A stretch of 64,000 nucleotides of DNA, taken from Streptomyces nigrescens (GTDB lineage Bacteria; Actinomycetota; Actinomycetes; Streptomycetales; Streptomycetaceae). The stretch spans positions 6,572,001 to 6,636,000 of the forward strand of contig AP026073.1 of the NCBI GenBank assembly GCA_024349765.1, written 5' to 3'. The notes below the pieces were generated by a model that did no database searches, was not told the origin of the DNA, and saw nothing but the letters and a program-made list of their open reading frames with translations. Position 1 is the first letter of the stretch. The number at the start of each line of letters is the position of its first letter. Positions 28,636 through 45,737 of this stretch are shown in pieces. The position numbers were made by a program, and so were the translations under genes.

Positions 28636-29403
28636 ATGGCCGGCCCGGTCCAGTCGATCGAACGGGCGGCGGCAATCCTGCGTCTGCTCGCCAGTGGGCC
28701 CCGTCGGCTCGGGCTGGGTGAGGTGGCCGTGTCGCTCGGGCTGGCGAAGGGCACCACCCACGGCATCCTGCGCACCCTGCAGAACATCGACTTCGTCGAG
28801 CAGGACCCCGCGACCGGGAAGTACCAGCTCGGGGCGGCGCTGCTGCACCTGGGCACCAGTTACCTCGACGTGAACGAGCTGCGGTCCCGCTCCATCAACT
28901 GGGCCGACGCCCTGGCCGCCCGCAGCGGGGAGGCGGTCCGCCTGGGCGCGCCCCTGGAGGGCAAGGTGCTCATCGTCCACCACGTCTTCCGCCCCGACGA
29001 CACCCTGCAGACGCTGGATGTGGGCGCGCTGCTGCCCCTGCACGCCTCCTCGCTCGGCAAGGTGCTGCTGGCGTTCGGCAGTGTGCCCCTGGAGCCGGCC
29101 GTGGAGGCCGGGCTGGAGGCGTACACCCGCCACACCCTGGTCGACCCGGGGCACCTGACCCGGGCGCTCAACGAGGTCCGGGAGCTCGGGTGGGCCGCCG
29201 AAGTGCAGGAGATGGTCATGGGCGACGCCGGCGTCGCCGCGCCGATCCGGGGCCACGGTGGCCTCGTGGTGGGCGCCATCGGTGCCTCCGGCACGGTCGA
29301 GCGGATCTGTGACTCCAAAGGGGTCCCACAGTCGGCCCTGGTCAGCCAGGTCCGCCACGCCGCCCAGGCGATCTCCAGGGATCTGGGGGCCGCCCGCTGG
29401 TGA
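28636..29403 (+). CDS. gylR: IclR-family regulator, GylR-like
   Basis: A 255-residue regulator. The N-terminal helix-turn-helix ([20 protein letters not shown], then [16 protein letters not shown]) and the C-terminal effector domain ([25 protein letters not shown]) closely resemble GylR, the glycerol repressor of Streptomyces. The glycerol kinase gene starts 37 bp downstream on the same strand, which supports a role in glycerol use. It could be a second GylR paralogue rather than the main one, because the usual partners glpF and glpD are absent. The ATG at 28636 is preferred over upstream in-frame starts, which precede non-conserved sequence. Confidence 0.85.
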
Positions 29404-29440
29404 GTCCCGCCGCCTCATGCCCCGCAACGGAAGGCTGATC

Positions 29441-30955
29441 ATGGTTGAGCGGTATGTGATGTCCATCGATCAGGGCACCACCTCCACCCGATGCATCCTC
29501 TTCGACCACCAGGGGCGGCTGGTGTCGGTCGTCCAGCGGGAGCACCAGCAGCACTTCCCCCGGCCCGGGTGGGTCGAGCACGACGCGGTCGAGATCTGGC
29601 ACACCCTGCAGCGCGTGGTGCCGCAGGCGCTCTCCCACGCCGATGTCGGCCCCGATGAGGTCGCCGCCGTCGGCATCGCCAACCAGCGCGAGACGACCGT
29701 GCTGTGGGACCCGCGTACCGGCGTCCCGCTGGGCAGGGCGATCGTCTGGCAGGACACCCGTACGGGTTCGCTGGTCGAGGATCTCAGGAGCCGGCCCGGG
29801 GACGAGTTCTTCCTCCGGCGCTGCTGTCTGGCCCCTTCCACGTACTTCTCGGCCCCCCGGATCCGCTGGCTGTTCGACCACGTCGACGGGCTGCGGCAAC
29901 GCGCCGAGGACGGCGAGGTGCTGTTCGGCACGATGGAGAGCTGGCTGATCTGGAACCTCACCGGCGGGCCGGCCGGCGGCATACACATCACCGACGTCAC
30001 CAACGCCAGCCGCACCATGCTCATGAACATCAGCACCCTCGACTGGGACGAGGAGCTGCTGGAGTTCTTCGAGGTCCCCCGGTCGATGCTCCCGGAGATC
30101 CGCCCCTCGGCCGAGACCTACGGGACCGCCCGTTCCGTCATCCCGGGCGTCCGCATCTCCGCGGCGCTGGGTGACCAGCAGGCGGCGCTGTTCGGACAGA
30201 CCTGCTTCGCTCCGGGCGAGGCGAAGTGCACCTACGGGACCGGCAGCTTCCTGCTGCTCAACACCGGCACCGACCTCGTACGGTCCCGGCACGGACTGCT
30301 CACCACCGTCGCCTACAAGATCGAGGACCAGCCCGCGGTCTACGCGCTCGAAGGCCCGATCGCCGTCACCGGCGCGCTGGTCCAGTGGTTCCGCGACCGG
30401 CTGGGGCTGATCAGCAGCGCCCCCGAGATCGAGACCCTCGCGCGCACCGTCGAGAACAACGGCGGCTGCTACATCGTCCCGGCGTTCTCCGGCCTGTACG
30501 CGCCGCACTGGCGCAGCGACGCCCGCGGGGTCATCGTCGGCCTCACCTCGTACATCACCAAGGGGCACCTGGCCCGGGCGGTGCTGGAGGCCACCGGCTG
30601 GCAGACCCGGGAGGTGGTCGACGCCATGAACGCCGACTCCTCGCTCGCCCTGAAGGTGCTCAAGGTGGACGGCGGGATGACGTCGGACAACCTGCTCATG
30701 CAGTTCCTGGCCGATGTGCTCGACGTGCCCGTGGTGCGCCCCATGGCCGTGGAAACGGTCTCCCTGGGCGCCGCCTACGCCGCCGGGCTCGCCGCCGGCT
30801 ACTGGCCCGACCTGGAGGTCCTGCGCCGCAATTGGCACCGGGCCGCACAGTGGCTGCCGGACATGGCCCCCGAGCGGCGGCAGGCGGAGTACGCGGACTG
30901 GAAGCGCGCGGTCGAGCGCTCCCTCGGCTGGATCGCCCCACCACCCCCGCCCTGA
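29441..30955 (+). CDS. glpK: Glycerol kinase
   Basis: A 504-residue FGGY-family kinase that makes sn-glycerol 3-phosphate from glycerol and ATP. It has the full family set: [16 protein letters not shown], the substrate loop [10 protein letters not shown] and [55 protein letters not shown] and LKVDGGM. The length is normal. The ATG follows GGAAGG by seven bases. It is the only glycerol catabolic gene here: in the classical Streptomyces gyl operon it is preceded by glpF and followed by glpD. After the stop the sequence runs into the ychF-derived attachment region. Confidence 0.95.
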
Positions 30956-31019
30956 CGCCCCGACCCGCGGCCGAACCGACCACCGACGGACGGCCCGGAT
31001 CCGGCGATCGGCACGCGAA

Positions 31020-31050
31020 CGGGGCCGGACCCCGGAGGGAACCGGCCCCG
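31020..31050. terminator. Hairpin left of attachment-like site A
   Basis: A 9-bp stem (CGGGGCCGG and its complement) around a 13-base loop, 64 bp downstream of glpK. It could terminate glpK, or, if this was once the sequence downstream of ychF, terminate that gene from the other side. Similar hairpins lie at the same place left of sites B and C. Confidence 0.55.
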
Positions 31051-31100
31051 CTGGACCTGCGCACTTTGGGCACCGCTACGTCGATGCCGTGGCAGGCGCT

Positions 31101-31116
31101 AGACGTTGCAGCGGAA
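31101..31116. other. Attachment-like site A: degenerate copy of the ychF 3' end
   Basis: AGACGTTGCAGCGGAA matches the 3' end of ychF (ACACGTTGAAGCGGAA at 41626) in 14 of 16 positions. The 63 bp that end at this core align without gaps to the 63 bp that end at the ychF copy, including GACCTGC at the left and GCTAC in the middle. To the right, TCAGCAC occurs at 31168 and 31179, 11 bp apart, like integrase arm sites. To the left no such arm repeats are seen. The arrangement is that of the left junction of an element integrated into ychF. Confidence 0.6.
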
Positions 31117-31204
31117 CGTACGTAACGACGCTCTCACCTGCGAAAACGTACCTACAGCAGGCTCAAGTCAGCACAGAATCAGCACGGGATTATGCCGCTG
31201 CCCT

Positions 31205-31789
31205 TTACTCGAGATCGCCGTCATCTCTCAGCGGTCTCATGGGGATCTCAAGGAGGGCGGGTTCTGCCAACTCGGGGGCCTCCACACCCGAGGTCCGCTC
31301 CGAGCTCTGCCGTCCCAGCCGCTTCCGGACCTCAATGCTCAGCGCTTCGACGGAGCGGGACTGCTCCTCCTGCGCGTCTGCGCTCCTCTTGAGATGTTTC
31401 GCGATCTGATGGGTACTCCACTCCACCGAGTCGGTCTCTAGGGCACTGTCCCGGAGGGCTTCAAGATCCACCGTGTAGATGAGCGGGTCCACGCGGCCGA
31501 ACGTTTCAATCACCAGCACGAGCAGCGATGACCCAGGGATACGAGGCCGGATGTCGACGATGACGTACGGCTCCGCCTGCTCGCGTTGCGCCTTCTCTGT
31601 GAGGGCGTTGGCTTGGGCAACTGCTCTCGCCTGGCGCCGGTTGTAGACGAGGGCCCAGAACGCCGCCGTCGTTGAGAAGACGAGAGCCGCCACGGAGATG
31701 ACACAGTGGCGATCTGGACGGATGAGTCGCTCATGACCGGTTGCTAGGCGGGTGGCCGGATATGGCGCGGAAAGGTTGCCGAAAAACAT
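31205..31789 (-). CDS. Hypothetical single-span membrane protein in the island
   Basis: A protein of about 194 residues that I do not recognise. One likely membrane helix (VISVAALVFSTTAAFWALVY) is followed by a basic, alanine/glutamine-rich helix and a cytoplasmic domain of about 140 residues (PYVIVDIRPRIPGSSLLVLV onwards). The C-terminal part is rich in Glu, Arg and Ser and probably helical. The start is uncertain: the ATG at 31789 lacks a ribosome binding site, as does a GTG at 31693 just before the helix. The gene is divergent from the Uma2 gene and sits between attachment-like sites A and B, so it belongs to the smaller element. Confidence 0.55.
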   Translation of the reverse strand: MFFGNLSAPYPATRLATGHERLIRPDRHCVISVAALVFSTTAAFWALVYNRRQARAVAQANALTEKAQREQAEPYVIVDIRPRIPGSSLLVLVIETFGRVDPLIYTVDLEALRDSALETDSVEWSTHQIAKHLKRSADAQEEQSRSVEALSIEVRKRLGRQSSERTSGVEAPELAEPALLEIPMRPLRDDGDLE

Positions 31790-31843
31790 CCGGCCGGGAT
31801 TGTGGGCACTCCGGCCTGAGCTGCGGGCCGCTACCGTGAAGCC

Positions 31844-32425
31844 ATGACCGCACTGCCCGACTGGATGCGCCCGCCGCGCGCGGAAGGCTGGTTCGCGGAG
31901 GACCTCGACCGCCTCCCCGAGGCGCCCCGCCACACCGAGTTGATCGACGGAGCCCTCGTCTTCATGATGTCGCCCCAGCGGTCCTGGCATGGCCGCCTCG
32001 TCACCGCCCTGACCACCACGCTCATGGCGCAGGCGCCCGCCGGCTTCGAGGTCGAGCGCGAGATGACGATCCGCCTCGATGCCCGCAACCGCCCTGAGCC
32101 GGACCTCTTGCTGACGAACCTGCCCTATGACCCCGACCGCACCTGGTACGCCCCGGAGGACGTGAAACTCGTCGTGGAGGCGGTGTCACCCGAGTCCGCC
32201 CATCGCGATCGCACAGTAAAGCTCCGCAAGTACGCGGAGGCCGGCATCCCGCACTACTGGTGCATCGAGGACGAGGACGGGGCACCCGTCGTCCACGTCT
32301 ACGAGCTCGACGAACCCACCGGCGCCTACGCGCCCGCCGGGATCTTCCGGGGCACCCTCCAGCGCCCGGTGCCCTTCGAGGTCAGCCTGGACCTGGACAA
32401 GCTCACGCCGCCCCGAAGCAGCTGA
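31844..32425 (+). CDS. Uma2 family (DUF820) endonuclease-like protein
   Basis: A 193-residue protein of the Uma2/DUF820 family, which has the PD-(D/E)XK nuclease fold. The active-site pattern is visible: RPEPDLLLT (Asp), LVVEAVSPESAHRDR (Glu) and VKLRKYAEAGIPHYW (Lys). Homologues are very abundant in Streptomyces, often in accessory regions, and their function is mostly unknown. It is one of two genes between attachment-like sites A and B and is directly followed by arm-like repeats and a strong hairpin. Confidence 0.88.
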   Translation: MTALPDWMRPPRAEGWFAEDLDRLPEAPRHTELIDGALVFMMSPQRSWHGRLVTALTTTLMAQAPAGFEVEREMTIRLDARNRPEPDLLLTNLPYDPDRTWYAPEDVKLVVEAVSPESAHRDRTVKLRKYAEAGIPHYWCIEDEDGAPVVHVYELDEPTGAYAPAGIFRGTLQRPVPFEVSLDLDKLTPPRSS

Positions 32426-32456
32426 AAAGTCAGCACGAGGTCAGCACGGGAATGCA

Positions 32457-32490
32457 GAAGGGGTCGGACTCACCAGAGTCCGGCCCCTTC
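32457..32490 (+). terminator. Terminator after the Uma2 gene, left of attachment-like site B
   Basis: A 15-bp stem with one T-G wobble (GAAGGGGTCGGACTC against GAGTCCGGCCCCTTC) and a 4-base loop ACCA, followed by TGACC. It starts 31 bp after the Uma2 stop. Confidence 0.8.
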
Positions 32491-32539
32491 TGACCCGCGC
32501 GTTTGACGAAACTGGCTAACATGCAGTGACGAGGCGACT

Positions 32540-32555
32540 ACACGTTGAAGCGGAA
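32540..32555. other. Attachment-like site B: exact 16-bp copy of the ychF 3' end
   Basis: ACACGTTGAAGCGGAA is identical to the last bases of ychF at 41626-41641. Arm-like repeats lie on both sides: TCAGCAC at 32430 and 32441 to the left, TCCAGCAC at 32606 and TCCAGCGG at 32617 to the right, each pair in 11-bp phase. The right flank (CGCTATGACCTGCGGAAACG) resembles the right flank of site A. Arms on both sides suggest the junction between two tandem elements. Confidence 0.7.
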
Positions 32556-32712
32556 TGTCGGAGGCTGCGCTATGACCTGCGGAAACGCCCCGTCGTAGGG
32601 TCCGATCCAGCACGTATCCAGCGGTCGGTGATCGCCGCCGCGCGCGGCTCACAGAGCGCCATCGTGCGGTAACCGCCGGGGGATCAGGTGGTCCTCCGAG
32701 GCGTCGTCCGGC
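32556..32712. other. Right arm of attachment-like site B, no gene seen
   Basis: A short non-coding stretch between site B and the SWIM protein gene. It holds the arm-like repeats near 32606 and 32617 and nothing else that I can identify. Confidence 0.4.
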
Positions 32713-34386
32713 TCACAGACCGTGCTCGTCCATCAGGCGCATCAGGTTCCGCTTGCGTTTGTGGGCGGTACGCAAAGCGGTGACGTAAGCGGTGAGCTCC
32801 TCGGGCGACCCCAGCCGACGGTGGCAGTCCCGGATGCTCAGCAGCAGACTGACCAGCTGCTCGTAGACCGCGTTGCCGGTCTGCCCGGTCAGCGGCTCGG
32901 CCAGACGCAGGTAGACGCCGAGTGCGTCGGCCGGGCGGGTGGCACGGGCCTGGTCGGCGAGGGCGAGCCACTGCCGGTCGTGGGCGCCGGTCTCGATGAC
33001 GACCTGCCAGGCGGCGTCGACGTCCTTGTCGTCGAGCAGGGCGTCGACCAGGACGGGACCGCCGTACCGCCATTGCCGCCGCCCCGCGTCGGCGCGCAGC
33101 AGGGCCAGCGCGCCCTCGCGCTCGGCCGACCAGCAGTCCGCGGCCCGGGCAGCGGCACGCAGCTGCTGGTAGGTGAGCAGGGTGCGGCGGGCGCCGAAGT
33201 GGTCGCGGCGTAGGGCGACGGCGTCGGCGAGTCGACCAGCCTGCGTGTAGCGGTCGCAGAGGTGGTCGACGAGGGCGGTGTCGACGGCAGCGAGGTCCCC
33301 GGCCTCCCGGACACCGCGTTCCGCCCAGTTCAGGGCATCGCCGGGGCGTCGGGCGAGGTCCAGCTCGCGGGCGATGACCAGGTGTGTGTGGCCGTCCGGT
33401 GCGAGGTCGGCCGCATGCACCGCAATCACCGCATCGACGTCGCCTCCCTTCTTGGCCAGACGCTCCATCAGGTCCTTCTCCGCCCAGCCACGGCGGTTGC
33501 CCTGCCACGCCTCGATCGCCAGCTTCCGCAGGGCGGCCATCCCCGCTGCGCCGAGAACATCCTCGTAGTCGAGTGGATCGATGTCGGTGAAGCCGTCGTC
33601 CGCCTCGCCGAGTACATGGCCGATGAGCCAGCCCGCGAGCTCTCCCGGGTCGGGGCGCGCCGCACGGCACGCGTCGAGATGAGCGTCGGCGAGGTCGGCG
33701 CCCACCTGGCCGAGCCAGCCGTCGGAGTCGTCGACGCTCTCCGCCGCCTGGGCCAGCAGATTCATCGCCTCCCGCGCCAGGACGACCGCGTCGGCCGCCC
33801 GTCCGGAGCCGGTCAGCGCACCGATCGCCGACACCGCCTGCCCGGCCTGATCCGCGTAGGCGCGGGCATCGGCGTACTCGACGTACCCGTACTGTGCTAA
33901 CGAGCCGACGTCGAGCAGTTCACGGACACGGGCCCCGACCGCGGCGAGATCCCCGCGGTCGCTCGCGGCCCGCAGCTCCAGGCGGTGCCGCAACTTCCGG
34001 TCCTCGCCGAGCTGTTCCCGCATCACAGCGAGCAACTCGTCCTTGGACAAGGCGGTCAACCACGCTTCGAGGTGCTGTGCCCGATCCCGCGCCGCCTTCC
34101 GCTGCCGCGTCAGGCTCTCCGAGCGAGCGAGCACCGTCAGGCCGAGGGCAACCAGATGCTTGCAGAAATTGCCCTCACGGCCATACGGACAGTCGCACGC
34201 GCCGGACAGCCCGCCAGCCCCTTCCAAGGACAGTTCCACTTCGTACCGTTCCGTGCCGTGGACGCTGGCGGTGATCCATCCGTCACCGACCTCGACCCCG
34301 GACACCGCATCCAGGTATCCGCGCCCGCGCTCGAAGGAACGGACACCCGCCAACATCTTGAGGTTTGTCTCGGTGAGGCCGCGCAT
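32713..34386 (-). CDS. SWIM zinc-finger family protein
   Basis: A 557-residue cytoplasmic protein. The SWIM motif C-x-C-x(9)-C-x-H is seen at about residues 61-76 (CDCPYGREGNFCKHLVAL). The rest is a long alpha-helical repeat region resembling a tetratricopeptide-like solenoid (many AL.LAR.A segments), so it may be a protein- or DNA-binding scaffold. SWIM proteins of this layout are common in actinobacterial accessory regions, and their role is unknown. The ATG at 34386 follows GGAGACC; the 58 in-frame residues before it look non-coding. Confidence 0.85.
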   Translation of the reverse strand: MRGLTETNLKMLAGVRSFERGRGYLDAVSGVEVGDGWITASVHGTERYEVELSLEGAGGLSGACDCPYGREGNFCKHLVALGLTVLARSESLTRQRKAARDRAQHLEAWLTALSKDELLAVMREQLGEDRKLRHRLELRAASDRGDLAAVGARVRELLDVGSLAQYGYVEYADARAYADQAGQAVSAIGALTGSGRAADAVVLAREAMNLLAQAAESVDDSDGWLGQVGADLADAHLDACRAARPDPGELAGWLIGHVLGEADDGFTDIDPLDYEDVLGAAGMAALRKLAIEAWQGNRRGWAEKDLMERLAKKGGDVDAVIAVHAADLAPDGHTHLVIARELDLARRPGDALNWAERGVREAGDLAAVDTALVDHLCDRYTQAGRLADAVALRRDHFGARRTLLTYQQLRAAARAADCWSAEREGALALLRADAGRRQWRYGGPVLVDALLDDKDVDAAWQVVIETGAHDRQWLALADQARATRPADALGVYLRLAEPLTGQTGNAVYEQLVSLLLSIRDCHRRLGSPEELTAYVTALRTAHKRKRNLMRLMDEHGL

Positions 34387-34523
34387 GGTCTCCGTCGCCC
34401 TGCTCCTGCTGCTGTCCCTTACGGCCGCCAGCTTAGGACTGACGGTCAGTCCGATCAGAAGGTCCACGGAATTTCCGCAAAGGCTGTGGCCGTACCGCGG
34501 GCTGCCGCGAACTGCAGAAACGC

Positions 34524-34544
34524 CCCTTGCGAGGGCAGCAAGGG
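34524..34544. terminator. Small hairpin between the SWIM gene and the SUKH remnant
   Basis: A 7-bp stem (CCCTTGC and GCAAGGG) with a 7-base loop, 31 bp beyond the stop codon of the SUKH-like remnant, which is read on the minus strand. No T-tract. Confidence 0.4.
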
Positions 34545-34574
34545 CCAGCTGAGGAGGCAATCGGCTTCCTCTGG

Positions 34575-35434
34575 CTACCCTCGTGACTCCCTGTACTTGT
34601 TGATCTCTTCCTGGGCTGCCGCCACGTTCCCGTGCTCGAAGGCCAGTCGACCGGCCGGTGCCGCCAACTCCACCCGTAGCACGCGAGGGTCACCGTTCGC
34701 CGCAAACAATGCGCAGTCGACTCGCGGTGTCGCCGGCTCGGCACAGGCACCAGTGTCGTCGATCCTGGCCTGCGCCGCTGCCAACGTGATGTCCAGTTCG
34801 AAGCCCTCGAAGCCCGCCGCCTGCAAGCGACCACGCAGCTCCGTGATCACGCGCAGCGTGACATCCTCCAAGGCGCCATCCCGCAGCGGGTATTCCAGAT
34901 CAAGCGGCTCCCTACCGAACCCCGTCTTCTCCCGCACATGCAGCCGGAGTATGTCCGTTCTCAGTACCGAGTGGCGATCCAGGACGAAGACCAGGACCAT
35001 GGCCGTCTTCACAGCGTCGGCAACGGTGTCTTCCTCTCCCATGGGGGGCAGCAGCCATTCCCGCTTCTCCTCTGCCACACGTTCCGGCCGCTGCCCCTGG
35101 AGCAGAGCGGTGATGCCCTCCGCCGGTGAAGCACCGAGGAGCCATGAGCCACCGTGATCGACGGAGAAGAGGCGAGCCTGCTCGTCGACGGCGAGCAGAG
35201 CATCGGAGTCGGTGCGGCCGAAGGGAAACAGTTTGACGCCCAGCGCCTCACTCAACCCGGCAAGCGTGCTGTGGGTGTACCGGCCGAGACGGGGATCCAC
35301 TGTGCATCCCGTGGCGGCCACCTGCAGCCCGGGCACCGTGGGCCGGAAAGTCAATCCGTGAAACTCGCGAACGCTCTGTTCTGCGGCCGGAAAGAGCACC
35401 CATCGCCCAGGGCCGGACCGCGCGACCGTGCTTA
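34575..35434 (-). pseudogene. SUKH-3-like immunity protein gene, 5' end cut by an IS element
   Basis: About 285 codons remain on the minus strand. The first part has SUKH-3 hallmarks: AAEQSVREFHGLTF, VAATGCTVDPRLGRYT, LGVKLFPFGRTDSDALLAVD, and FSVDHGGSWLLG followed by ITALLQG. SUKH proteins are immunity partners of secreted or contact-delivered toxins, often nucleases. After the SUKH domain comes an unusual extension of about 160 residues with no family I know. The frame runs straight into the IS5-type element at 35435, so the natural start is lost. It lies next to the nuclease cassette on the same strand, which fits an immunity function. Confidence 0.6.
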
Positions 35435-36292
35435 GACGCCGTTTCTGATGGTGTGATCGCTCGTTGAGCCGTGCATGACGGATCTGGTTGAGCGGTTGGT
35501 ACCGGACGAGTTGTGGGTGCTGTTCCGGCGGGTGGTCCCGCCGACGGAGGTCATACGCCCGCAAGGCGGCGGCCGCCGACGGGCCGGTGACCGCGCATGC
35601 CTGGCAGCGATCATCTTCGTGGCCACCTCGGGCTGCACGTGGCGGCAACTGCCGCCGGCGTTCGGGCCGGCCTGGCCCACCGTCTACCGGCGCTTCGCCC
35701 AGTGGAGCCGGGACCGGGTGTGGGCCAGGCTGCATCGCGTCATCCTCGACGAGCTCGGCGCCCGCGGAGCGTTGGACTGGTCGCGGTGTGCGATTGACTC
35801 CGTCAGCGTCAGGGCGGCAAAAGGGGGCCACTGACCGGACCGAATCCGACCGATCGAGGCAAGAGCGGATCGAAAATCCACCTGATCACGGACCGCAACG
35901 GGCTGCCCCTGTCCCTGGGCATCTCCGGCGCCAACATGCACGACAGCCTCGGACTGGAACCACTCGTGGGCGGGATCCCGCCCATCCGCTCCCGCCGCGG
36001 ACCGCGCCGCCGGCGTCCAGCCAAGCTCCATGCCGACAAAGGCTACGACTACGACCACCTGCGCCGATGGCTCCGTAAGAAAGGCATCCGTCACCGCATC
36101 GCCCGCAAGGGCATCGAGTCCTCCACCCGGCTGGGCCGCCACCGCTGGGTCGTCGAAAGGACGGTCTCCTGGCTCGCCGGATGCCGCCGCCTGCACCGCC
36201 GCTATGAACGCAAGACCGAACACTTCCTCGCCTTCGTCGGCATAGCAGCGACCCTCATCGGCTACCGCCGCCTCACCAAGTGAAACGACGTC
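35435..36292 (+). mobile_element. IS5-family insertion sequence, 858 bp, with TTA target duplication
   Basis: The element is bounded by imperfect inverted repeats (left GACGCCGTTTCTGATGG; right, complemented, GACGTCGTTTCACTTGG) and a direct TTA duplication at 35432-35434 and 36293-36295. Inside is one transposase split in two frames. The TTA target and the split frame are features of the IS427 group of IS5. It sits in the SUKH-like gene and stops 12 bp short of the stop codon of the next gene, which it leaves intact. Confidence 0.88.
35475..36283 (+). CDS. IS5-family transposase, probably made by programmed frameshift
   Basis: The first frame (35475-35834) encodes the N-terminal DUF4096 part (MTDLVERLVPDELWVLFRRV, TSGCTWRQLPP, DWSRCAIDSVSV with the first catalytic Asp). 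It ends just after AAKGGH. The second frame, one base back, continues with LTGPNPTDRGKSGSKIHLIT and carries the second Asp (HADKGYDYDHLR) and the Glu (HRWVVERTVSWL). The run AAAAGGGGG at about 35819-35827 is a plausible slip site for a -1 shift. Both halves are undamaged, so the element may be active. Catalytic DDE residues are all present. Confidence 0.85.
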
Positions 36293-36304
36293 TTAGTTGA
36301 ACAC

Positions 36305-36826
36305 TCAGACACTGTCTTCTTCGCCATCTGGGCAGACGTTGCCTGTGAGGTGGAGGTCAAGGTAGTAGTGCTCTGGGGTGGGATTGTTCCGCCAGGCGCG
36401 CTTGAGACTTTCGGGTTCTGTGTGTTCGGTAAGGATGCGGTCGTAGTAGTCACGCGTGGACTTTCGGCCAGTCCACCAGGCGTGGCCTTCGTAGATCCCG
36501 GGGCGGGGGAGGTCCATGGTTCCTGCGGGACCGACAGTGAGTTGGTTGATGACCAGGCAGGCGGTGGCGGACTCGATGAGCACGGGGGTGGAGCCTTCGC
36601 AGTGCTTGGGTGGCGCTTGTACCTGATCCCAGATGCGGATGGTCACGTCGACCTTGATGTCGGGTTGCAGGCTGTGCAGGTACAGGTGGTAGCCGTTGCC
36701 GGCTACCACCTGCTCTCGTGATGCCTCGGCTGCGGCGCTGTCGTCGAGGTAGGCGTCGGCGTCGTAGACCTCCACCAGGCCGTGGGCAGGTCGGGCTTTC
36801 ACGGTGTGTTCGGCGAGCAGCGCCAC
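36305..36826 (-). CDS. Probable inhibitor/immunity partner of the NucA-like DNase (Nin/ComJ-like)
   Basis: A 173-residue soluble protein without a signal peptide. The central part (LPRPGIYEGHAWWTGR after ATACLVINQLTVGPAGTMDL) resembles the end of the Bacillus ComJ/Nin fold, where a similar DLPKGDY segment closes the domain. In Bacillus, Nin inhibits the NucA nuclease and the genes are neighbours. Here the gene starts 16 bp after the NucA/NucB-type gene, with AAGGAAG before a GTG, so the two are cotranscribed. Similarity was judged by eye and is weak; the functional call rests mainly on context. Confidence 0.5.
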   Translation of the reverse strand: MALLAEHTVKARPAHGLVEVYDADAYLDDSAAAEASREQVVAGNGYHLYLHSLQPDIKVDVTIRIWDQVQAPPKHCEGSTPVLIESATACLVINQLTVGPAGTMDLPRPGIYEGHAWWTGRKSTRDYYDRILTEHTEPESLKRAWRNNPTPEHYYLDLHLTGNVCPDGEEDSV

Positions 36827-36841
36827 AATGTCTTCCTTGAG

Positions 36842-38146
36842 TTAGCTCGTGATTTTCACGAAGAAGGGATCGCCGTCGAGGATCCTGTTTGCGGTGTACA
36901 CGGAGTTGAGTCGACGGCCGCCGGTTTCATTGTCCGCGCCGTCGATCAGCCGGACGGAGTAGCGGTTGTCGCCCTTGTTCGATCCCTCGCGGGTCGAAGC
37001 GAAGGGATACTCGTCGCACTGCAAGGGAGTTCCGGAATAGTTCCCCCACACCTTGGTGCACTCGCTTATTGATTTTTCCCGGTTCGCTTCCTGCTTTTTG
37101 GTGTCTATGAGTCGGTGCAGCGGTTCTTTCGCTCCGGGCACGCTCTTTCCAGGCCAAGACGGGAAGGTTCGCTCCGGGTTCTTCTGGGCGTCGAGTATGT
37201 GCTGTGCGCTCTCGTTGACTGCCGGGTCCTTGAGGCTCAGCGCAAGTTCAGCTCGGCCTTCGGTGAACACGGTCCCCTTGTGCTTGCCTGCGATCGGTCC
37301 TGCATAGTCGAAGCGGACGTTGGAGTGGTAGGCGTCGACTTGGTTGTACGGAGCGACATCGGGGGCGTTCACGGTGAGCTCGGTCATTATCAGGGACTCG
37401 ACCAGCTGCAGGTTGCCTTTGCTCCACTGGGGGCCTGCGTCGGGCGAGGTGTAGGTGAGCGTCCACTGAGGCTGCTTGTCCCAGGCGCCGAGCAGCTCGT
37501 CACGGCTCTCCTTCTTGGGAGGCGTGACCGTGCTGGACGGGTCGCCGGAGGGCGAACCGCTGGTGTGGCTGAAGTACTGCCCCACGGTCCAGTTTCGCGC
37601 GTCAGCGCCAGAGCCGGGAGCGGTCTGGACCCGTATGTTCTCGATACTGCTGACAAAGTCGACGCGCCTGGCGCCGTCGGTGGCGAATCCGAGCACCCAC
37701 ACATCGAACCAGAGCCGCCCAATCTCTTGAGTGCCTCTCATGTCACGCACCACAAGGTCGAAAGGGCGGTGCTGGCAGGTTTCGAACCGGCTCTTGAGCC
37801 ATCCCTTGGAAGCCGCCGCTTCCCTGTGCTTGGTGCACTGTTCTCGCAGATCCGTCTGTTCGTTTCCTGCTGCCACAGCGGACCTGGTGGCCCTTGGGGC
37901 AAGCGTGGAGGCTGCCGCTCCCGTATCCGGACGGTATTCATCGAGAGGCACGGGATGGTTGAGATCGCGCAGAGCCTCAGAAGGCAGGGTGGCAGCGGGC
38001 ACGAAGGTCACCGCGGGCGTCGAGAGGCCATGGCCTGGCGCCGGAGACCCAGTGGCGCTGGCGGCTGAGGGAGCACTGGCCAAGAGGAGCGCACCTGCCA
38101 CAACGAGCAGACGAGCCCTGCGAGCGAAGGGTAAGTGACGAGTCAT
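36842..38146 (-). CDS. Secreted nuclease with C-terminal NucA/NucB domain
   Basis: A 434-residue protein. It has a Sec signal peptide at residues 1-32 (RRARLLVVAGALLLASAPSA, then ASA). Residues 35-345 are a large N-terminal region with several cysteines and no family I recognise. The C-terminal 90 residues match the DNase NucA/NucB domain: the key LQCDEYPFASTREG motif with the catalytic Glu, then GADNETGGRRLNSVYTANRI and a final DPFFVKIT. NucB of Bacillus is a secreted sporulation DNase. The ATG at 38146 follows AGGAG. It lies in a three-gene minus-strand unit between a secreted protein and a likely inhibitor. Confidence 0.78.
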   Translation of the reverse strand: MTRHLPFARRARLLVVAGALLLASAPSAASATGSPAPGHGLSTPAVTFVPAATLPSEALRDLNHPVPLDEYRPDTGAAASTLAPRATRSAVAAGNEQTDLREQCTKHREAAASKGWLKSRFETCQHRPFDLVVRDMRGTQEIGRLWFDVWVLGFATDGARRVDFVSSIENIRVQTAPGSGADARNWTVGQYFSHTSGSPSGDPSSTVTPPKKESRDELLGAWDKQPQWTLTYTSPDAGPQWSKGNLQLVESLIMTELTVNAPDVAPYNQVDAYHSNVRFDYAGPIAGKHKGTVFTEGRAELALSLKDPAVNESAQHILDAQKNPERTFPSWPGKSVPGAKEPLHRLIDTKKQEANREKSISECTKVWGNYSGTPLQCDEYPFASTREGSNKGDNRYSVRLIDGADNETGGRRLNSVYTANRILDGDPFFVKITS

Positions 38147-38222
38147 CGGCGTGGCTCCTGTAGCGCAAGTCGTCGGAAGGGCAGGCCAAACGAATTCCTC
38201 AACGTCCGGTGAGGGAGAGGCG

Positions 38223-39524
38223 TCATGACTCGCACATCTGGCCCCAGCACGCATCGATCAACTGGCCGGTCACCTCGGAGTAGGAGGCTCGGAATCCCGC
38301 GAAGTTCGCCTCGTGGTGGCCGAGTCCCGGCGTGGCCTCAGCAGACGTCACAGTCCATACGTGTGCGGCTTCGCTGCCAGTAGTGAAGCCGGTACCGGAG
38401 GAAGGGGCGACAACCGTCAACTTCTCAGGAGCCACCGCAAAGGACGCGGCTGCCCTCTGCCGAATTTCCTCACCGCTGACAGAAGTGCTCGGACCCGGAA
38501 CGTCGGCGACAGCGCTGTCCGCACCCTCGGCATTGCACATACGGGCACTGGCAACGCACTCCGCCAGGCCTGGCACCGTGGCCATGCACTCGTCAGGTGC
38601 ATTGATCAAGCACTCCTGCAGCGCTGGCTGATCAACACCGTTGAAGACTTCGTTCCGAGCAGGACTCAGTACGGAGAGGGAGCGGCCCGGTAACGCCGTG
38701 GTGAGGGATGGCGCAAACTCCGCTGCTTTGCGAGGCTTTCCAGTCGTCCACTGAGTGAACGACGCACCGCCCGTCAACTTGGCGTTGAAGCAGTAGGGAG
38801 GTTTTCTCGTGCCGCCACAGGTACCCAGAGAGATTATCTTCGCCGTATTAGCCGATGCGACCTGGTGCCATGCCTTGTCCTCACTCATGAACTGCATACG
38901 GCTGGCGATGTTGGGGACGTGAGAGTACTGAGGCCCCATTACTTCAAGGCCGAGATCGATCCGGTTAGGGTTTCCACGAGGAACCTTCAGCTGGTGGCCA
39001 GTACTGCCGACCTTGTTGAAGTCGTACAGGATGTCCCATTGGTTGCCGCTCTGTTGGCGCACCACCATGTAGGTGTGGTTGCGCCGGTCCGACTTCGTCG
39101 GGTTCACGCCGGCCTTGATGGCTTTCGTCACGCCACCTTGAGTGGTCAGCTCACTCCAGCGTGGCCCGTAGGACTGCGTCGCCTTGCCGGTCTTCTCGGC
39201 ATACAGCCCAACCTCGATGTTGGGTGCAATCGGAGAACTCTCGGTGTTGGGTGAGACCCTCATATAGTTCGCGACCTGAACTGTGGTATTCGGCGTGTCG
39301 ACCTTGTCGAACGTGACAGGCTCGTTCCGCCAAGTAGCGAACCCGCCAATCATCGGCTCACCGGGCTGACTGCACGTCATCGCCCAGAACACGATCTGTG
39401 CGGTGTACGCGGTGTTGCAGGACCTCGTAGGCGGCGACGCTGAAGCCTGTCCTGCCGAAAGGGGCACCAGCCCCAGTGCCCCCGCAAGCGCTGCCAACGC
39501 ACCGCGACGTATCGGTAATCGCAC
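38223..39524 (-). CDS. Secreted protein of unknown function heading the nuclease cassette
   Basis: A 433-residue protein with a clear Sec signal peptide (basic start MRLPIRRG, hydrophobic core, ASA-type cleavage near residue 29). The mature protein has about a dozen cysteines, mostly in the first 40 and in residues 245-350, so disulfides are likely. I recognise no domain. The GTG start follows AGGGGGG. The DNase gene starts 77 bp downstream on the same strand, so the two secreted proteins are probably made together. It might help deliver, store or activate the nuclease. Confidence 0.7.
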   Translation of the reverse strand: MRLPIRRGALAALAGALGLVPLSAGQASASPPTRSCNTAYTAQIVFWAMTCSQPGEPMIGGFATWRNEPVTFDKVDTPNTTVQVANYMRVSPNTESSPIAPNIEVGLYAEKTGKATQSYGPRWSELTTQGGVTKAIKAGVNPTKSDRRNHTYMVVRQQSGNQWDILYDFNKVGSTGHQLKVPRGNPNRIDLGLEVMGPQYSHVPNIASRMQFMSEDKAWHQVASANTAKIISLGTCGGTRKPPYCFNAKLTGGASFTQWTTGKPRKAAEFAPSLTTALPGRSLSVLSPARNEVFNGVDQPALQECLINAPDECMATVPGLAECVASARMCNAEGADSAVADVPGPSTSVSGEEIRQRAAASFAVAPEKLTVVAPSSGTGFTTGSEAAHVWTVTSAEATPGLGHHEANFAGFRASYSEVTGQLIDACWGQMCES

Positions 39525-39744
39525 GCAAACCCCCCTGTTGAGCGATCTTCAGTCGAGGCGAAGTTAGCAAGATTCCATGATGTATGACCGAATGGATCGA
39601 TAAGCGTCTCAAAGTCCACCATGAGATGCGATGAGGGTTCCACCGTCGACGCAAAGGCACGACCATGCCATACACCCCACCAACTGAAGAGCACAGCGGT
39701 CGTCCAACGTCGGCCAGGGGATGCGAGGGAAAGCCCCCAGCAGC
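39525..39744. other. Upstream region of the nuclease cassette
   Basis: About 220 bp, less GC-rich than the window average. It must hold the promoter of the three-gene cassette, but I see no clear -10/-35 pair. The far end merges with the remnant IS5 element. Confidence 0.35.
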
Positions 39745-40235
39745 CGTTTAAGAGGGCTTCTCATTTGGCCGGGTCTTCGGCAGGTGAGGGTGCAGGCGAT
39801 GCTGGTGAAGGCCAGAAAGCGGTCGGCTTTGTGCTCGTAGCTTCGGTGGAGTCGGCGGCAGCCGGCGAGCCAAGCCATGGTGCGTTCGATGGTCCAGCGA
39901 TGCTGGCCCAGCCGCTTGGACGATCGATGCCTTTGCGGGCGATCCAGTGGGTGATCCCACGTCCGCGCATCCATCGCCGCAGGTGGTCATAGTCGTAGCC
40001 CTTGTCCGCGTGCAGTTTGGCGGGGAGCCGTCGACGGGGTCCGCGTCGGGAGCGGATCGGTGGGATGCCGCGAACGAGGGGCTCGAGGCCCTGGCTGTCG
40101 TGGAGGTTGGCGCCGGAGATGCCGATGGAGAGGGGCAGGCCGGTCCGCTCAGTGATCAAGTGGACCTTTGATCCCCTTTGCCCCGATCGATCGGATTCAG
40201 ACCTGCCATTTCCCCCTTTCGCGCTGACCGCAGTA
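39745..40235 (-). pseudogene. IS5-family transposase remnant
   Basis: The C-terminal two thirds of a transposase close to that of the intact element: KVHLITERTGLPLSIGIS, the HADKGYDYDHLRRW Asp and, after a frameshift following ARKGID, RWTIERTMAWLAGCRRLH with the Glu. The N-terminal DUF4096 half is missing, and there are at least two frame breaks, so it is dead. In front of it the frame continues into 40 residues of unrelated sequence that includes CPVCP. Confidence 0.8.
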
Positions 40236-40431
40236 CCTCTGCCGCGGGCCACGGGCCGCCAGCTGGTGCTGGCCGCCGACATCACGCGCGAGGCGATCTG
40301 TTCTCGCGGGATGACCTGGGGGCAAACCGGGCATTTGAGGTTCAAGCCGCCAACCGCGTGCAGTATCCGCTCCGTCGAGTGATCGCGAACTTGTAGGCGA
40401 TGCCTTCCCGTAGCTGACGCGCTGATCGTGC

Positions 40432-40842
40432 ATGAAGTCTGTGACGATTTGCCCGGTTATCAGGCGGGGTGTTCCCCTCGTGGCAGCGTCAGCTCTGCTT
40501 CCCTTGCTGAGCGCGCAGCCAGCAGTCGCCGACGCCAGTAGCTGCACGCACGATTTCTCAGGGCCACAGATCTGCATCCGCCTCAAGGGCCGCAACGGTT
40601 CCAACTCCGTCACGGGCATCTGGACCAACCCTTCGCAAGGGACCCGGCACAGAGCTGTCACTGTCTTCATGAACGGCAGGCGTGTCAGCACCGCCCAGGC
40701 CCGCCGGGTCGGCAGCACGCTCTCGCATACCTGGCCCACCATGCACACAGGCACCGACACCAAGATCTGCGTGAAGTTCGCTGGAATCGGCAGGGTCGCC
40801 TGTGACACAACCCGGTACATCGGAGACCGGGCCCAACTCTGA
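40432..40842 (+). CDS. Small secreted protein of unknown function
   Basis: A 136-residue protein with a Sec signal peptide (hydrophobic GVPLVAASALLPLLSAQPA, cleavage near AVADA at about residue 34). The mature part of about 100 residues has four cysteines (SSCTHD, QICIRL, KICVKF, VACDTT), enough for two disulfides, and a high content of Thr, Arg and Gly. There is no recognisable family. The start lacks a good ribosome binding site; a GTG three codons in is possible. It lies in the island between IS debris and the region before ychF. Confidence 0.6.
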   Translation: MKSVTICPVIRRGVPLVAASALLPLLSAQPAVADASSCTHDFSGPQICIRLKGRNGSNSVTGIWTNPSQGTRHRAVTVFMNGRRVSTAQARRVGSTLSHTWPTMHTGTDTKICVKFAGIGRVACDTTRYIGDRAQL

Positions 40843-40989
40843 CCGGACAGAAACTCGCCCCTGTCCCCGGCCCGGCTCGGATCAGCACGGCTGACCGGTC
40901 GCTTCGCGCGCCTCCAGCGCCCCTCACTGGGCGGGGCGCTGGAGACGTGTGCGGCTACCAGCGGCGAAGATCGCTGCATAGCTGGTGGG

Positions 40990-41160
40990 TGCCATGCCGT
41001 ACGGCGCAACCGTCGGCGGCCGTCGGGTTTGTCGCCAAGGGCGACGACGGGGTCAGCGACGCCGTAGCGTGATGCGGTAAGCCAGGAGGTCGGTTGCGGT
41101 ATCCATCCACTCGTTGACACTCCGCTTGGGCGGCATCGGCCCGAGGACGGTGACTAACCG
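40990..41160 (-). pseudogene. Possible relaxase-type fragment, frameshifted
   Basis: On the minus strand one frame reads LVTVLGPMPPKRSVNEWMDT, then ATDLLAYRITL, and the next frame continues YGVADPVVALGDKPDG. Together they resemble a stretch often seen near the C-terminus of TrwC/TraA-type conjugative relaxases of actinobacteria (LGP, AAYR, YGV.DP..ALG). It is only about 55 residues, with one frameshift, and the match is by eye. Confidence 0.35.
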
Positions 41161-41198
41161 AGCTTGTTCCACTTTGACGGACACCGTCGGTGCGGTGG

Positions 41199-41267
41199 TC
41201 AGGCCGCAAGGGCAGCCTCGCAGTCGGCGGGTGCGCGGTAGCCGAGACTGGTGTGTAGCCGGACCAT
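41199..41267 (-). pseudogene. IS3-family transposase, C-terminal tail only
   Basis: The 22 residues MVRLHTSLGYRAPADCEA plus ALAA end at a stop codon. This is the conserved end of IS3-family (OrfB/InsF) integrase cores, where RLHSSLGYRSPADFE is usual. The catalytic part is gone. The sequence GTCCGTCAAAGTGGAACAAG just beyond it, read on the minus strand, looks like the end of such an element. Confidence 0.55.
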
Positions 41268-41543
41268 GCGCATGGCACGGTTCCCCCACCGCGTCCCACG
41301 TGGCGCCACGGACACCGCACGCGGGCCGCATACCGCGCCCATGGGCAACGGGCACCGCGCACACCCCCATCCCCCAGCCCCAGCCCCCACCCCCAACGAA
41401 ATCCGCAGCCAGGACCCAGCCCATCCAGCTGACACCCCATCAGCCACATCCAGCCCCGATCCAGCAACGGTACGCATAACCAGGGATGACGACAGCTGAC
41501 GAGACGTCAGCAAATCCAGCACGGATCCAGCAACGGGAACGAC

Positions 41544-41575
41544 AGCGGGGCCGGCCCCCACATGGGCCAACCCCG
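41544..41575. terminator. Terminator hairpin beyond the ychF 3' end (site C side)
   Basis: GCGGGGCCGGCCC pairs with GGGCCAACCCCGC around a short loop, with a two-base internal mismatch. It is about 50 bp beyond the ychF stop on the side where ychF transcription ends, and may have been supplied by the integrated element. Confidence 0.6.
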
Positions 41576-41623
41576 CCTGACCTGCACATTTGCCAGGTGG
41601 CTACCTCAACGCTATGACCGGCG

Positions 41624-42712
<1,089 letters not shown>

Positions 42713-42976
42713 GGTGGCGACTCGACTTCCGAAGCGAGAGCGGTGGGGTGGGCAACGGCCTCGTGAGGGGCCGATCCACCAGTCTACGGGGCGGGCGGCG
42801 GCGCCCGGCCGCCCCAGGCCCGGGCCGGTGCCCCGCCGCCGCGCCCCCTTGTCCAGGCCCGCCCTGCCCCGTCCCGCACCGGCCCCGCACCCGCTCGTGT
42901 CGAACGCAGTCCCAAGCTCGGCCAAAGCGCGTGTCCCGTAACCGGTTAATACCACTTAGCGGCCTACCGTTGGCGA

Positions 42977-43918
42977 GTGGAGCAACACGAAGCGCGCACC
43001 CCCCAGCACGGCCCGCCGTGGTCCGGACGCCCGGCCGCGGACCAGGACGCCCGGCTCCCGCGCCCGGCGGAGGCCGTGGCCCCCGACCCCGACGACGACT
43101 TCCTCTCCGCGATGCGGGCCTCCGGCTTCGCGTCCGTCCCGATCGCCGCGCCCGCGCCCGTACGGGCCACGGCGCGCGGCCCGGCGCAGGCGTGGGCCGC
43201 CCGGGGGCCCACCCCGGCGGCCCTGGCGGGACCCGTGGGCGAGCGGGCGGCCGTGCCGCCCCCGGCGGGCGTGGAGTCCTCGACCGTCTACCGGGCGCGC
43301 CCGCAGCGTCCGCTTCCCGCGGCGCCGGAGAACCTGCGGCGCCGGATGCCCGCGGCCAAGCTCACCGGCCTGGGCTGCTGGCTGCTGGCGACGCTCGCGC
43401 TGTTCGCCTTCGCCTGCCTGGACCAGCTGCTGCTCGGCGGCGCACAGACCCCGTACGGGGTGTTCTTCCTGCTGGTGGGCGTGGGCGCGGCGGTGTGGGT
43501 GCGGCCGTACGACCTGATCTGCGCGCCGGTCACGCTGCCGATCGCGTTCACGCTCGGGGCGGTGCCGATCCACCGCGGCGGGGACGGTTTCGACGGGCTG
43601 CTGATGGGCGTCTTCACCGTGCTCGCGCTGAACGCCGGCTGGCTCTACGCGGGCACGCTGGTCTGCGCGCTGATCGCGATCGTCCGGCGGGCGGCGGTCA
43701 TCGCGCGACGTCGGGCCAGCCGACCGGTGACGCGACCGCGGAGCGGGGAGCCCGGGCCGGCGAACCGGGCGGCGGCCCGGAAGGCTGACCGGTCGCGGCC
43801 ACGGCCGGGGACGCGGCCGCGGCAGGTGGCGCGCCAGCCCGAGCGGCGTACGCGGCCATCGCAGCCCCCACGATCCCCGCGTTGTTCTGAAGCTGAGCCG
43901 GCACGATCTCGGCCCTGA
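42977..43918 (+). CDS. DUF6542-type membrane protein
   Basis: A 313-residue protein with three parts. Residues 1-120 are a proline/alanine-rich cytoplasmic region. Residues 125-235 hold four or so membrane helices ([68 protein letters not shown]), the pattern of DUF6542. The last 80 residues are Arg/Pro-rich and overlap, on the opposite strand, the end of ppgK. The GTG start is supported by the position of the conserved region rather than by a strong ribosome binding site. Function unknown. Confidence 0.78.
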
Positions 43919-44591
43919 TGCCCTCGATCAGCGGCAGGAACTTCTCGGCCTTGCGGCTCACCCCGCCGCCGATCACGAACAGCTCGGGCGAGAACAGCAT
44001 CTCCACATGGGCGAGGTACTTCTGGACCCGGCGCGCCCAGCGCTGCCAGCTGAGCTCCTCGTCCTCCTTGGCCTTGGTGGAGGCGCGTTTCTCGGCGTCG
44101 TGGCCGTGCAGTTCGAGGTGGCCGAGCTCGGTGTTGGCGAGGAGCCGGCCGTCGGTGAAGACGGCGCTGCCGATGCCGGTGCCGAGGGTGAGGACGATGA
44201 CGGTGCCGCCCCGGCCGCGGCCGGCGCCGAAGCGCATCTCGGCCAGGCCGGCCGCGTCCGCGTCGTTGAGGAGGGTGACCGCGCAGCCGCCGGCCTCGCC
44301 GCCGAGGCGGTCGGTGATCAGGGTGGCGGCGTCGGTGCCGATCCATCGTCTGTCGACGTTGGCGGCGGTGCGGGTGATGCCGCCGGTGACCACTCCGGGG
44401 AAGGTCACGCCTACGGGGCCGGTCCAGCCGAAGTGCGCGACCACCTCGCGGACGCAGTCCGCGACGGCGTCCGGGGTGGCCGGATGCGGGGTCAGTACCT
44501 TGTGGCGCTCGTCGGCGAGGTCGCCGCGTTCGAGATCCACCGGGGCGCCCTTGATGCCCGATCCGCCGATGTCCACACCGAAGACCCTCAT
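43698..44591 (-). CDS. ppgK: Polyphosphate glucokinase
   Basis: A 297-residue ROK-family kinase that phosphorylates glucose with polyphosphate or ATP. The N-terminal phosphate motif [13 protein letters not shown], the [12 protein letters not shown] motif and [11 protein letters not shown] are typical. The core ends near residue 247 with [12 protein letters not shown]. About 50 further residues are Ala/Pro/Ser-rich and low complexity. This tail overlaps the convergent DUF6542 gene by 221 bp; it may be a normal read-through extension without function. Confidence 0.93.
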
Positions 44592-44690
44592 GGGGAAAAG
44601 GCTAGGCGCGGACGGGCCCGGCCGCCCAGGGAACGCGGATCCGGCGGCACTGTCGTCCGCCGGGGCCGCGCTCGCCGTCGGGCCCGGGTG

Positions 44691-45737
44691 TCAGGCGTCG
44701 GTGTCCTCGGTCGCCGCCTTGGCCTCGGCGCGCAGATCGCGGCGGAGTTCCTTGGGCAGCGAGAAGGTGATGGACTCCTCGGCCGCCTTGACGATCTCGA
44801 CGTCGCCGTAGCCGCGCTCGGCGAGCCATTCCAGGACCTGCTCGACCAGGACCTCCGGGACGGAGGCGCCGGAGGTGACGCCGACCGTGGTCACGCCCTC
44901 CAGCCAGGCCTCGTCGATCTCGCTGGCGAAGTCCACGAGGTAGGCCTCGCGGGCGCCGGCGAGCTTGGCGACCTCGACGAGCCGCTTGGAGTTGGAGGAG
45001 TTGCGGGAGCCGACCACGATGACCAGGTCCGCCTCGGCGCCCATCTGCTTCACGGCGAGCTGGCGGTTCTGGGTGGCGTAGCAGATGTCGTCGCTGGGCG
45101 GGGAGATCAGCTGCGGGAACTTCTCCTTCAGCGCGTCGACGGTCTCCATGGTCTCGTCGACGGAGAGGGTGGTCTGGGAGAGCCAGACGATCTTCGACGG
45201 GTCGCGGACCTCGACCTTGTCGACGTCCCCGGGGCCGTCGACGAGCTGGATGTGGTCGGGGGCCTCGCCGGAGGTGCCGATGACCTCCTCGTGGCCCTCG
45301 TGGCCGATCAGGAGGATGTCGTAGTCCTCGTTGGCGTAGCGGACGGCTTCCTTGTGGACCTTGGTCACCAGGGGGCAGGTCGCGTCGATGGTGGCGAGGC
45401 GGCCCTGCTTGGCCTCCTCGTGGACGACGGGGGCGACGCCGTGCGCCGAGAACATCACGATGTTGCCCGGCGGGACCTCCTCCGTGCGCTCGACGAAGAT
45501 CGCGCCCTTCTTCTCCAGGGTCTTCACGACGTACTTGTTGTGCACGATCTCGTGGCGCACGTAGACGGGCGCGCCGTACTGCTCCAGGGCTTTCTCGACG
45601 GCGATCACGGCGCGGTCCACGCCCGCGCAGTAGCCACGGGGGGCGGCGAGCAGGACCTTGCGGCCGGCGGGCTGGATGTCACTGGGACGCGCAGCGTCTC
45701 CACTGGGGGCGGCGGTGGGCGACGGGCGGGAAGTCAT
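44691..45737 (-). CDS. ispH: 4-hydroxy-3-methylbut-2-enyl diphosphate reductase
   Basis: A 348-residue iron-sulfur enzyme, the last step of the methylerythritol phosphate route to IPP and DMAPP. The three cluster cysteines are in [22 protein letters not shown] and [17 protein letters not shown] and HEGHEEV give the substrate histidines, and TSGASVPE the Ser/Ala motif. The ATG at 45737 is used; one at 45746 would add three residues, and neither has a strong ribosome binding site. The C-terminus has a short acidic tail. Confidence 0.96.

Follow-up and report, generated by a model that had tools for sequence, protein, structure and literature searches.

Why should the end of a conserved gene be repeated in the sequence lying next to it? 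The question is raised by ychF in a 64,000-nucleotide stretch of Streptomyces nigrescens (assembly GCA_024349765.1, contig AP026073.1, positions 6,572,001 to 6,636,000; hereafter the window), where copies of the gene's 3' end recur to its left. We consider it probable, at roughly 0.88, that the last ychF codons together with the stop codon act as attB for tyrosine integrases and that the window carries two stacked units at this putative site, element 1 (31117–32555) and element 2 (32556–41641), neither of which holds an integrase. The order chromosome, attL, element 1, junction, element 2, attR and ychF, which a sequence-only reading of the locus had proposed, is supported by integrases found at the same site elsewhere and by a joined site in another genome. 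In the following, G numbers denote genomes, L numbers denote fetched loci (L057 is window 28001–48000), and arm offsets are given relative to the core.

The gene ychF occupies positions 41624–42712 on the minus strand, with its stop codon at 41624–41626, a reading frame open to 42955 and a probable start near 42712; YchF relatives were found. Its last 16 bases, ACACGTTGAAGCGGAA, constitute core C (41626–41641, plus strand), the attR-type site. A search of the window recovered the two further copies that the sequence-only reading had listed, namely core B at the junction of elements 1 and 2 (32540–32555, plus strand), which is exact, and core A, the distal attL-type site of element 1 (31101–31116, plus strand; AGACGTTGCAGCGGAA), which carries two changes. 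Since natural ychF ends commonly carry G at core position 2, just one of the two changes in core A is unusual. A fourth match with three changes was present at position 393; 0.25 matches are expected in the window at up to three mismatches, and four were reached by none of 100 shuffles. Elsewhere in the genome the exact core does not occur. At up to two mismatches the genome contains nine places versus seven for a backwards control, and near matches to the core alone thus carry little meaning; five other such places on contig C1 showed neither arms nor the GACCTGC context (one place on contig C2 was left out of this check).

The sites are further distinguished by arm-like repeats of the type YCAGCAC. 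TCAGCAC occurs 19 times in the window versus 7.8 expected. To the right of core A, two copies of TCAGCAC lie at +67 and +78 (31168–31185). Core B is flanked on both sides, by a pair at −110/−99 (32430–32447) and by CCAGCAC at +67 with a decayed CCAGCGG at +78 (32607–32624). To the left of core C, CCAGCAC at −110 is accompanied by CCAGCAA at −99 (41516–41533), and a decayed, outer arm-like pair is found at 41450–41467. All of these pairs are on the plus strand and 11 bp apart; each arm pair of element 2 contains one decayed arm. Compared without gaps over 63 positions, sites A and C are identical at 42, and within the 47 bp left of the core 28 positions agree, a count reached by 23 of 200,000 random pairs. 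Hairpins on the minus strand lie left of A (31020–31050), left of B (32455–32492, with 94% complementary arms) and left of C, downstream of ychF (41545–41576), with z scores of −3.75, −4.36 and −3.52, respectively; each beats all 200 of its shuffles in folding. The arm pattern with its 11-bp phase, the ungapped alignment and the hairpins described in the sequence-only reading were all borne out by these searches.

Element 1 provides the most direct evidence for a bounded unit. It is 1.4 kb long, has exact 11-bp arm pairs at both ends and contains a 261-residue open reading frame without a family match in Pfam or PADLOC (31205–31990, minus strand) and a Uma2 gene (31844–32425, plus strand; PF05685, PADLOC candidate PDC-S03). 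In genome G018 the corresponding sequence aligns with window positions 31103–32555 and ends at the cores (86% identity over 404 bp and 92% over 1046 bp), and no similarity was detectable between the left flanks of element 1 in the two genomes. The right core of element 1 in G018 is that of ychF itself: element 2 is absent, and the sequence found left of core B in the window is joined straight to ychF. The similarity to the sequence left of B covers 698 bp at 92.8% and stops 2 bp from the core on both sides. Judged from this alignment, the G018 joint is the putative pre-insertion state of element 2. Between the two genomes ychF is 91% identical and the sequence beyond it 70–80%, so that the similarity of element 1 does not clearly exceed that of ychF. 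The left half of element 1 is present in 11 of 199 genomes, the window's own included, some of which hold just a few dozen arm bases. In G182 the whole unit measures 874 bp and has the order core, arms, Uma2, arms, core and ychF. The description of the array as decayed accordingly holds for core A and some of the arms but fits element 1 poorly, which is kept as a bounded, integrase-less unit in another genome. More generally, for 15 of 47 distal sites the left flank lay in another genome at a matching distance (within 60 bp) from ychF; these comprise 37 flank matches, some of which rest on the conserved element end alone, and nine sites have matches of at least 395 bp.

Neither element contains a detectable integrase: four integrase queries found no match in window 28001–48000, in agreement with the sequence-only reading, nor did Pfam and PADLOC searches of the main reading frames. 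Tyrosine integrases with paired arms do adjoin the ychF core in other Streptomyces, as that reading had led one to look for. An integrase of one type (class A, PF00589) lies beside the distal core in L048 (genome G157), L053 (G278), L174, L180 and L190 (in two pieces), and also beside a core in the IMG/VR contigs L150, L159 and L164. The +67/+78 offsets of the window recur beside the integrases of L048, L053, L169, L150, L159 and L164. A second arm set at +80/+91 and −142/−131 is seen in L174, L180 and L190, where the +80/+91 pair is still 11 bp apart. A second class of integrase is associated with other arms in L042, L045, L063 and L070, with fragments in L039, L061, L071 and L109; in L063 and L070 this integrase adjoins ychF. 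Two of these elements, in G157 (56 kb) and G278 (54 kb), are prophages, each with an SPP1-type portal; G157 also encodes Sipho_Gp37 and an amidase, and G278 a phage-type exonuclease. At its ychF end the G157 prophage carries Type III restriction-modification genes. L174 (12.5 kb) combines its integrase with a Type ISP-like restriction-modification system and L180 (17.4 kb) with a Type I system. A known phage or plasmid carrier of the class A integrase was not found: none of the matching records, 1,016 of phages and 205 of plasmids, reached 60% identity, and the top-ranked phage match was Streptomyces phage Success at 32.6%. The window's own genome gave nine PF00589 matches, eight of them over the cut-off and none close to class A.

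Several related loci were observed alongside. In L169 (G007:C1:8655000-8674500) a core with arms accompanies a broken class A integrase, and ychF is missing from the surrounding ~10 kb; of two options, we read this locus as a possible long element or a possible secondary site. The IMG/VR contigs L140, L147 and L158 hold class-B-like integrases beside the core, ~0.9 kb away in L147; the ychF of L147 is just 47% identical to that of the window, which suggests that the target may be used outside Streptomyces. The viral contig L150 (8822–10588), which has a ychF-type site, encodes a reverse transcriptase that we presume to be of the group II intron type, with an AbiU-like gene ~6 kb away.

The distribution of the site across the genus was determined from the core and its context. 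The exact core is present in 169 of 392 Streptomyces genomes and in more than one copy in 20; among the matches listed, at least 13 genomes besides the window's own have two copies on one contig and strand, 1.7–56 kb apart. Of 80 fetched loci, 79 (the named loci) have a recognised ychF end. Arms at ychF were of class A in 26 of these, of class B (TGCGGAC type) in 10, doubtful in 12 and absent in 31, so that arm-like repeats of class A or B accompany 36 of 79 ychF ends and are not universal there. Random stretches of the named loci (n = 1,495) yielded 6, 17, 160 and 1,312, respectively; the doubtful class is hardly above this control and was given no weight. Further core-like sites with context, scanned for over up to 10 kb per locus, were found in 14 of the 79 named loci (weakly so in L061, L115 and L136), versus none in reversed and one in opposite-strand controls (all 100 loci, 1.77 Mb). 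The scan lists 34 loci, 20 of which lie outside the named set, were mostly chosen for two cores and are shown regardless of a second site. With ~18 kb available downstream of ychF, 10–11 of 28 loci contained a further site; the 28 are those with a recognised ychF among 36 loci from genomes chosen for an exact core (L200, where the core is that of ychF itself, was excluded, and L178 is weak). On these sequence comparisons, the ychF 3' end is a widely used putative tyrosine-integrase attachment site in Streptomyces.

In 180 sites drawn from 142 loci, some of which share a genome, left-hand arms are most frequent at −110 to −108 and −99 to −97 and right-hand arms at +67 and +78; of 140 spacings between neighbouring arms, 91 measure exactly 11 bp. 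At core position 2 the distal and the ychF copy differ in 18 of 31 site pairs, often with G in the distal copy and C at ychF, which fits a crossover to the right of this position. Co-variation of the cores was considered as proof of exchange and rejected: wherever the core varies, distal and ychF copies agree about as often as chance would give (13 of 31 at position 2 versus 16.3 expected, with several pairs from one locus).

The sequence downstream of ychF is hypervariable. A simple gene caller predicted 692 genes in 90 loci, and no family occurred in more than 13 of them; a common native neighbour of ychF was sought and not found. One arrangement recurs at ychF sites (L054, L101, L109, L047 and others), namely a HEAT-repeat protein with a DUF6000 protein after it; the DUF6000 family occurs in 9 of 90 loci, and the arrangement is often seen in loci with class B arms. 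The window itself has a glpK-type gene pair left of site A (28537–30955), whose closest homologues (83–85%) are found in G001, G007, G016 and G020 and show no ychF in the stretches fetched. We rejected glpK as the native neighbour: homologous glpK regions in six fetched genomes have no ychF within 11–18 kb beyond glpK, and among 100 loci glpK is near ychF solely in that of the window. The comparison suggested in the sequence-only reading thus failed to establish the glpK region as the original chromosomal flank. Either the pair was displaced or the surroundings of ychF changed, and the empty site is demonstrable for element 2 from the element 1 side, not from the left flank.

Most site pairs resemble those of the window in giving no integrase match. 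We examined 31 adjacent site pairs in 26 loci and found an integrase match in eight (that in L124 is weak and profile-only) and none in 23. This count left out L086 and L064 (same contigs as L047 and L050), G018's own pair, the left site of which missed the context filter, and pairs with a ychF-like CTCCACCAC after the left core (e.g. L043, L054, L117 and L089). The test consisted of four integrase queries, which an unrelated recombinase could escape; Pfam revealed no recombinase in ten further large proteins. Exact 11-bp arm pairs are found at both ends of eight of the integrase-less pairs, at one end of six and at neither end of nine. Nine of the 23 are under 2 kb, the smallest measuring 0.82–0.87 kb. 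In L225, L195 and L173 (0.83–0.87 kb) the arm sets are complete and enclose either a single Uma2 gene or a single toxin-antitoxin-like pair.

We scanned 30 large cargo proteins from units other than those of the window, and 17 gave a PADLOC match at E≤1e-3, in some cases a weak one. The cargo includes Type I restriction-modification (L043, L124), DrmD/DpdE/ZorD-like helicases (L123, L039), AbiU (L083), a PDC-S41/AbiO-like protein (L135), PDC-S27 and a TIR protein (L040), PDC-M05A (L069) and NB-ARC (L054); L039 also holds Phd/YefM with ParE or YoeB. From their sequences we take the pairs in L173 and L199 to be YefM/YoeB-like, those in L195 and L159 Phd/RelE-like, that in L171 RHH/PIN-like and that in L069 MNT/HEPN-like. 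In L117 (11432–14869) an RHH/PIN-like pair lies near each unit end, in opposite directions; in L135 (5558–11509) such a pair at one end faces a single PIN-like reading frame at the other, again in opposite directions. The Type I restriction-modification units of L043 and L050, whose subunits were called by PADLOC and by similarity, respectively, have an extra methyltransferase-like gene, and L043 also a DUF6119 protein.

Element 2 is 9.1 kb long. On the minus strand it encodes a 615-residue protein matching PADLOC candidate PDC-S62 (32713–34560; E 5e-40), a SUKH-3 domain protein (34575–35831; E 1.2e-20), a 173-residue protein (36305–36826), a protein with a C-terminal NucA/NucB DNase domain (36842–38254; E 3e-13) and a 433-residue protein (38223–39524), and on the plus strand a 136-residue protein (40432–40842); those of 173, 433 and 136 residues have no family match in Pfam or PADLOC. 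Two of the ten window proteins scanned match PADLOC candidates (PDC-S62 and PDC-S03). An FtsK/TraB-type transfer gene is the defining feature of an actinobacterial integrative and conjugative element (AICE). None was seen among the Pfam matches of the scanned window proteins, nor was any phage structural family, such as those present in G157 and G278, detected among these proteins by Pfam.

These data suggest how the array may have formed. An incoming circle would carry a 16–25-bp copy of the core, paired arms, mostly near −109/−98 and +67/+78, and a hairpin. Upon recombination ychF would keep its frame and gain new stop-side sequence and a new hairpin, and the old ychF end would be displaced as the distal core. 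Because an intact target would be rebuilt at ychF each time, units would stack in order with the newest beside ychF; element 1 would have come first, and element 2 would have been inserted later between element 1 and ychF. Most likely, the units came in, or arose from larger elements, through the integrases of ychF-specific prophages or of integrase-bearing defence elements. We read the window as an integrase-less array of defence and toxin-antitoxin cassettes that the integrases of ychF prophages and related elements may serve in trans. In its furthest form, the ychF end would be a phage attachment site that has become a platform of the integron kind, where integrases of ychF-specific prophages capture, stack and shuffle in trans single-module defence and toxin-antitoxin cassettes (from 0.82 kb upwards) that have two-sided arm sites and no integrase. 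We advance this form tentatively and would not quite bet on it; if true, phages using the ychF site would at the same time disseminate genes that protect their hosts from phages.

Several observations weigh against this reading. Comparison between genomes establishes the sites, the boundaries of element 1, the presence or absence of element 2 and the integrase at the same site elsewhere, and from these we infer recombination itself, the insertion order, the function of the hairpins as terminators and the supply of integrase in trans. A search of 13 genomes at E≤1e-30, the window's own included and mostly carriers of integrase-less units, returned nothing related to the class A integrase in 12 and a fragment in the thirteenth; present mobility is thus unproven. 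The nine integrase-less pairs with no exact arm pair at either end include element 2, and an integrase relative in L044 lies ~1.5 kb from ychF without such arms. Thirteen of the 30 large cargo proteins have no PADLOC match. The flank left of A differs from the usual surroundings of ychF, which leaves the outer end of the array uncertain. Finally, decay of larger elements explains part of the set. Taken to its limit, this last point would make every integrase-less unit a decayed remnant of the type described as cis-mobilizable elements (CIMEs), immobile since its integrase was lost, with the stacking completed while each element still had its own. We give this explanation a chance only slightly short of even. 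The broken or fragmentary integrases at sites in L039, L061, L071, L109, L169 and L190 and the partial decay of element 2's arms and of core A speak for it, and the formation of CIMEs by gene loss followed by accretion is described for other bacteria in the relevant part of PMC5704250. It has more difficulty with L225, L195 and L173, which differ in cargo and yet each keep both arm pairs, and with element 1, which lies between cores in two genomes with unrelated left flanks. Movement of units accounts for this more economically than would repeated deletions that each spared one gene or gene pair together with both arm sets.

Two further explanations dispense with successive insertion. Had elements 1 and 2 arrived as one composite island, excision of element 2 from an ancestor of G018 would give the same two states as are seen in G018 and the window. 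We regard this as improbable: core A has diverged furthest while both B and C are exact, a pattern that would follow from an older A side, although as evidence this is weak. Alternatively, arms and hairpin could be the ancestral ychF terminator, inherited vertically and duplicated by homologous recombination without any site-specific integration, for which the similarity of some right-hand flanks in many species might be invoked. The arms also lie right of distal cores and beside integrases, however, are missing from the 31 loci counted above, and the boundaries of element 1 fall at cores; together with the lack of any family shared by more than 13 of 90 downstream regions, this already contradicts the terminator explanation, to which we assign hardly any probability.

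Tandem accretion at a gene end, as supposed in our preferred reading of stacked insertions, is of a known kind, as described in the relevant parts of papers on CIMEs (PMC5704250), on the island PAISt (PMC4057263) and on ssrA islands (PMC3146451). In the account of CIMEs of the ICESt1 type from streptococci (PMC5704250, in part), units that lack integration genes have retained attL and attR and line up in tandem with integrase-bearing elements where a target gene ends. The units of the window likewise keep att-type sites at both ends and have no integration genes, and related integrase-bearing elements occupy the same site in L048, L053, L174, L180 and L190, with none close in the window's own genome. 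They differ in that the integrase-bearing partners include prophages, in sizes down to 0.82 kb with one gene or toxin-antitoxin-like pair, and in that much of the annotated cargo is defence or toxin-antitoxin; no conjugation genes were seen among the scanned proteins. Arms paired at fixed distances, as expected of integrase attachment sites, are present in the window, and an adjoining integrase is found in its relatives rather than in the window. PAISt of S. turgidiscabies, as far as described in an excerpt of PMC4057263, shares a tyrosine recombinase, the 3' end of a protein-coding gene as target, three copies of the gene end and two modules; it differs in its target (bacA), its 8-bp palindrome, its modules of 105 and 569 kb, its virulence cargo and the presence of an integrase. 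The ssrA islands of Dehalococcoides (PMC3146451, in part) similarly form tandem arrays at one single-copy gene and are bounded by repeats of the target end, and sixteen of them, though not all, have an integration module; they use a CcrB-like serine recombinase and carry reductive dehalogenase cargo. At the defence hotspots of phages and satellites in E. coli, defence genes are concentrated at prophage- or integrase-linked loci according to PMC9122126 and PMC10121019, in a variable slot inside a phage and not, as here, in whole att-bounded units.

The site described here also differs from integron cassettes in its two-sided arm sites, its phage-type integrase and its ychF-end target, and membership is not claimed. 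Integron gene cassettes are likewise compact single-module units, toxin-antitoxin pairs included, lined up at one site, and an integron cassette array is defined by the integron integrase and its attC sites. Among the papers listed by our searches of the open PubMed Central (PMC) literature, none names ychF as an attachment site in Streptomyces. The passages available from a vector paper on Samy and other serine integrases of Streptomyces contain no ychF (PMC12924846), and a pneumococcal prophage paper mentions 'ATPase YchF' (PMC8637289). The satellite prophage of Streptococcus pneumoniae BM6001 integrates near ychF; as described in an excerpt of PMC10383233, its 26-bp site is intergenic and upstream of the gene.

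Taken together, these comparisons would make the ychF end a frequent and mappable insertion site for defence and toxin-antitoxin genes in Streptomyces. Many of the units hold proteins without a family match, and the unit boundaries could aid the search for new defence systems. The tyrosine integrases, whose target within a conserved gene is defined, might serve as genetic tools. The locus also raises a testable question, namely whether a phage integrase may move defence cassettes in trans.

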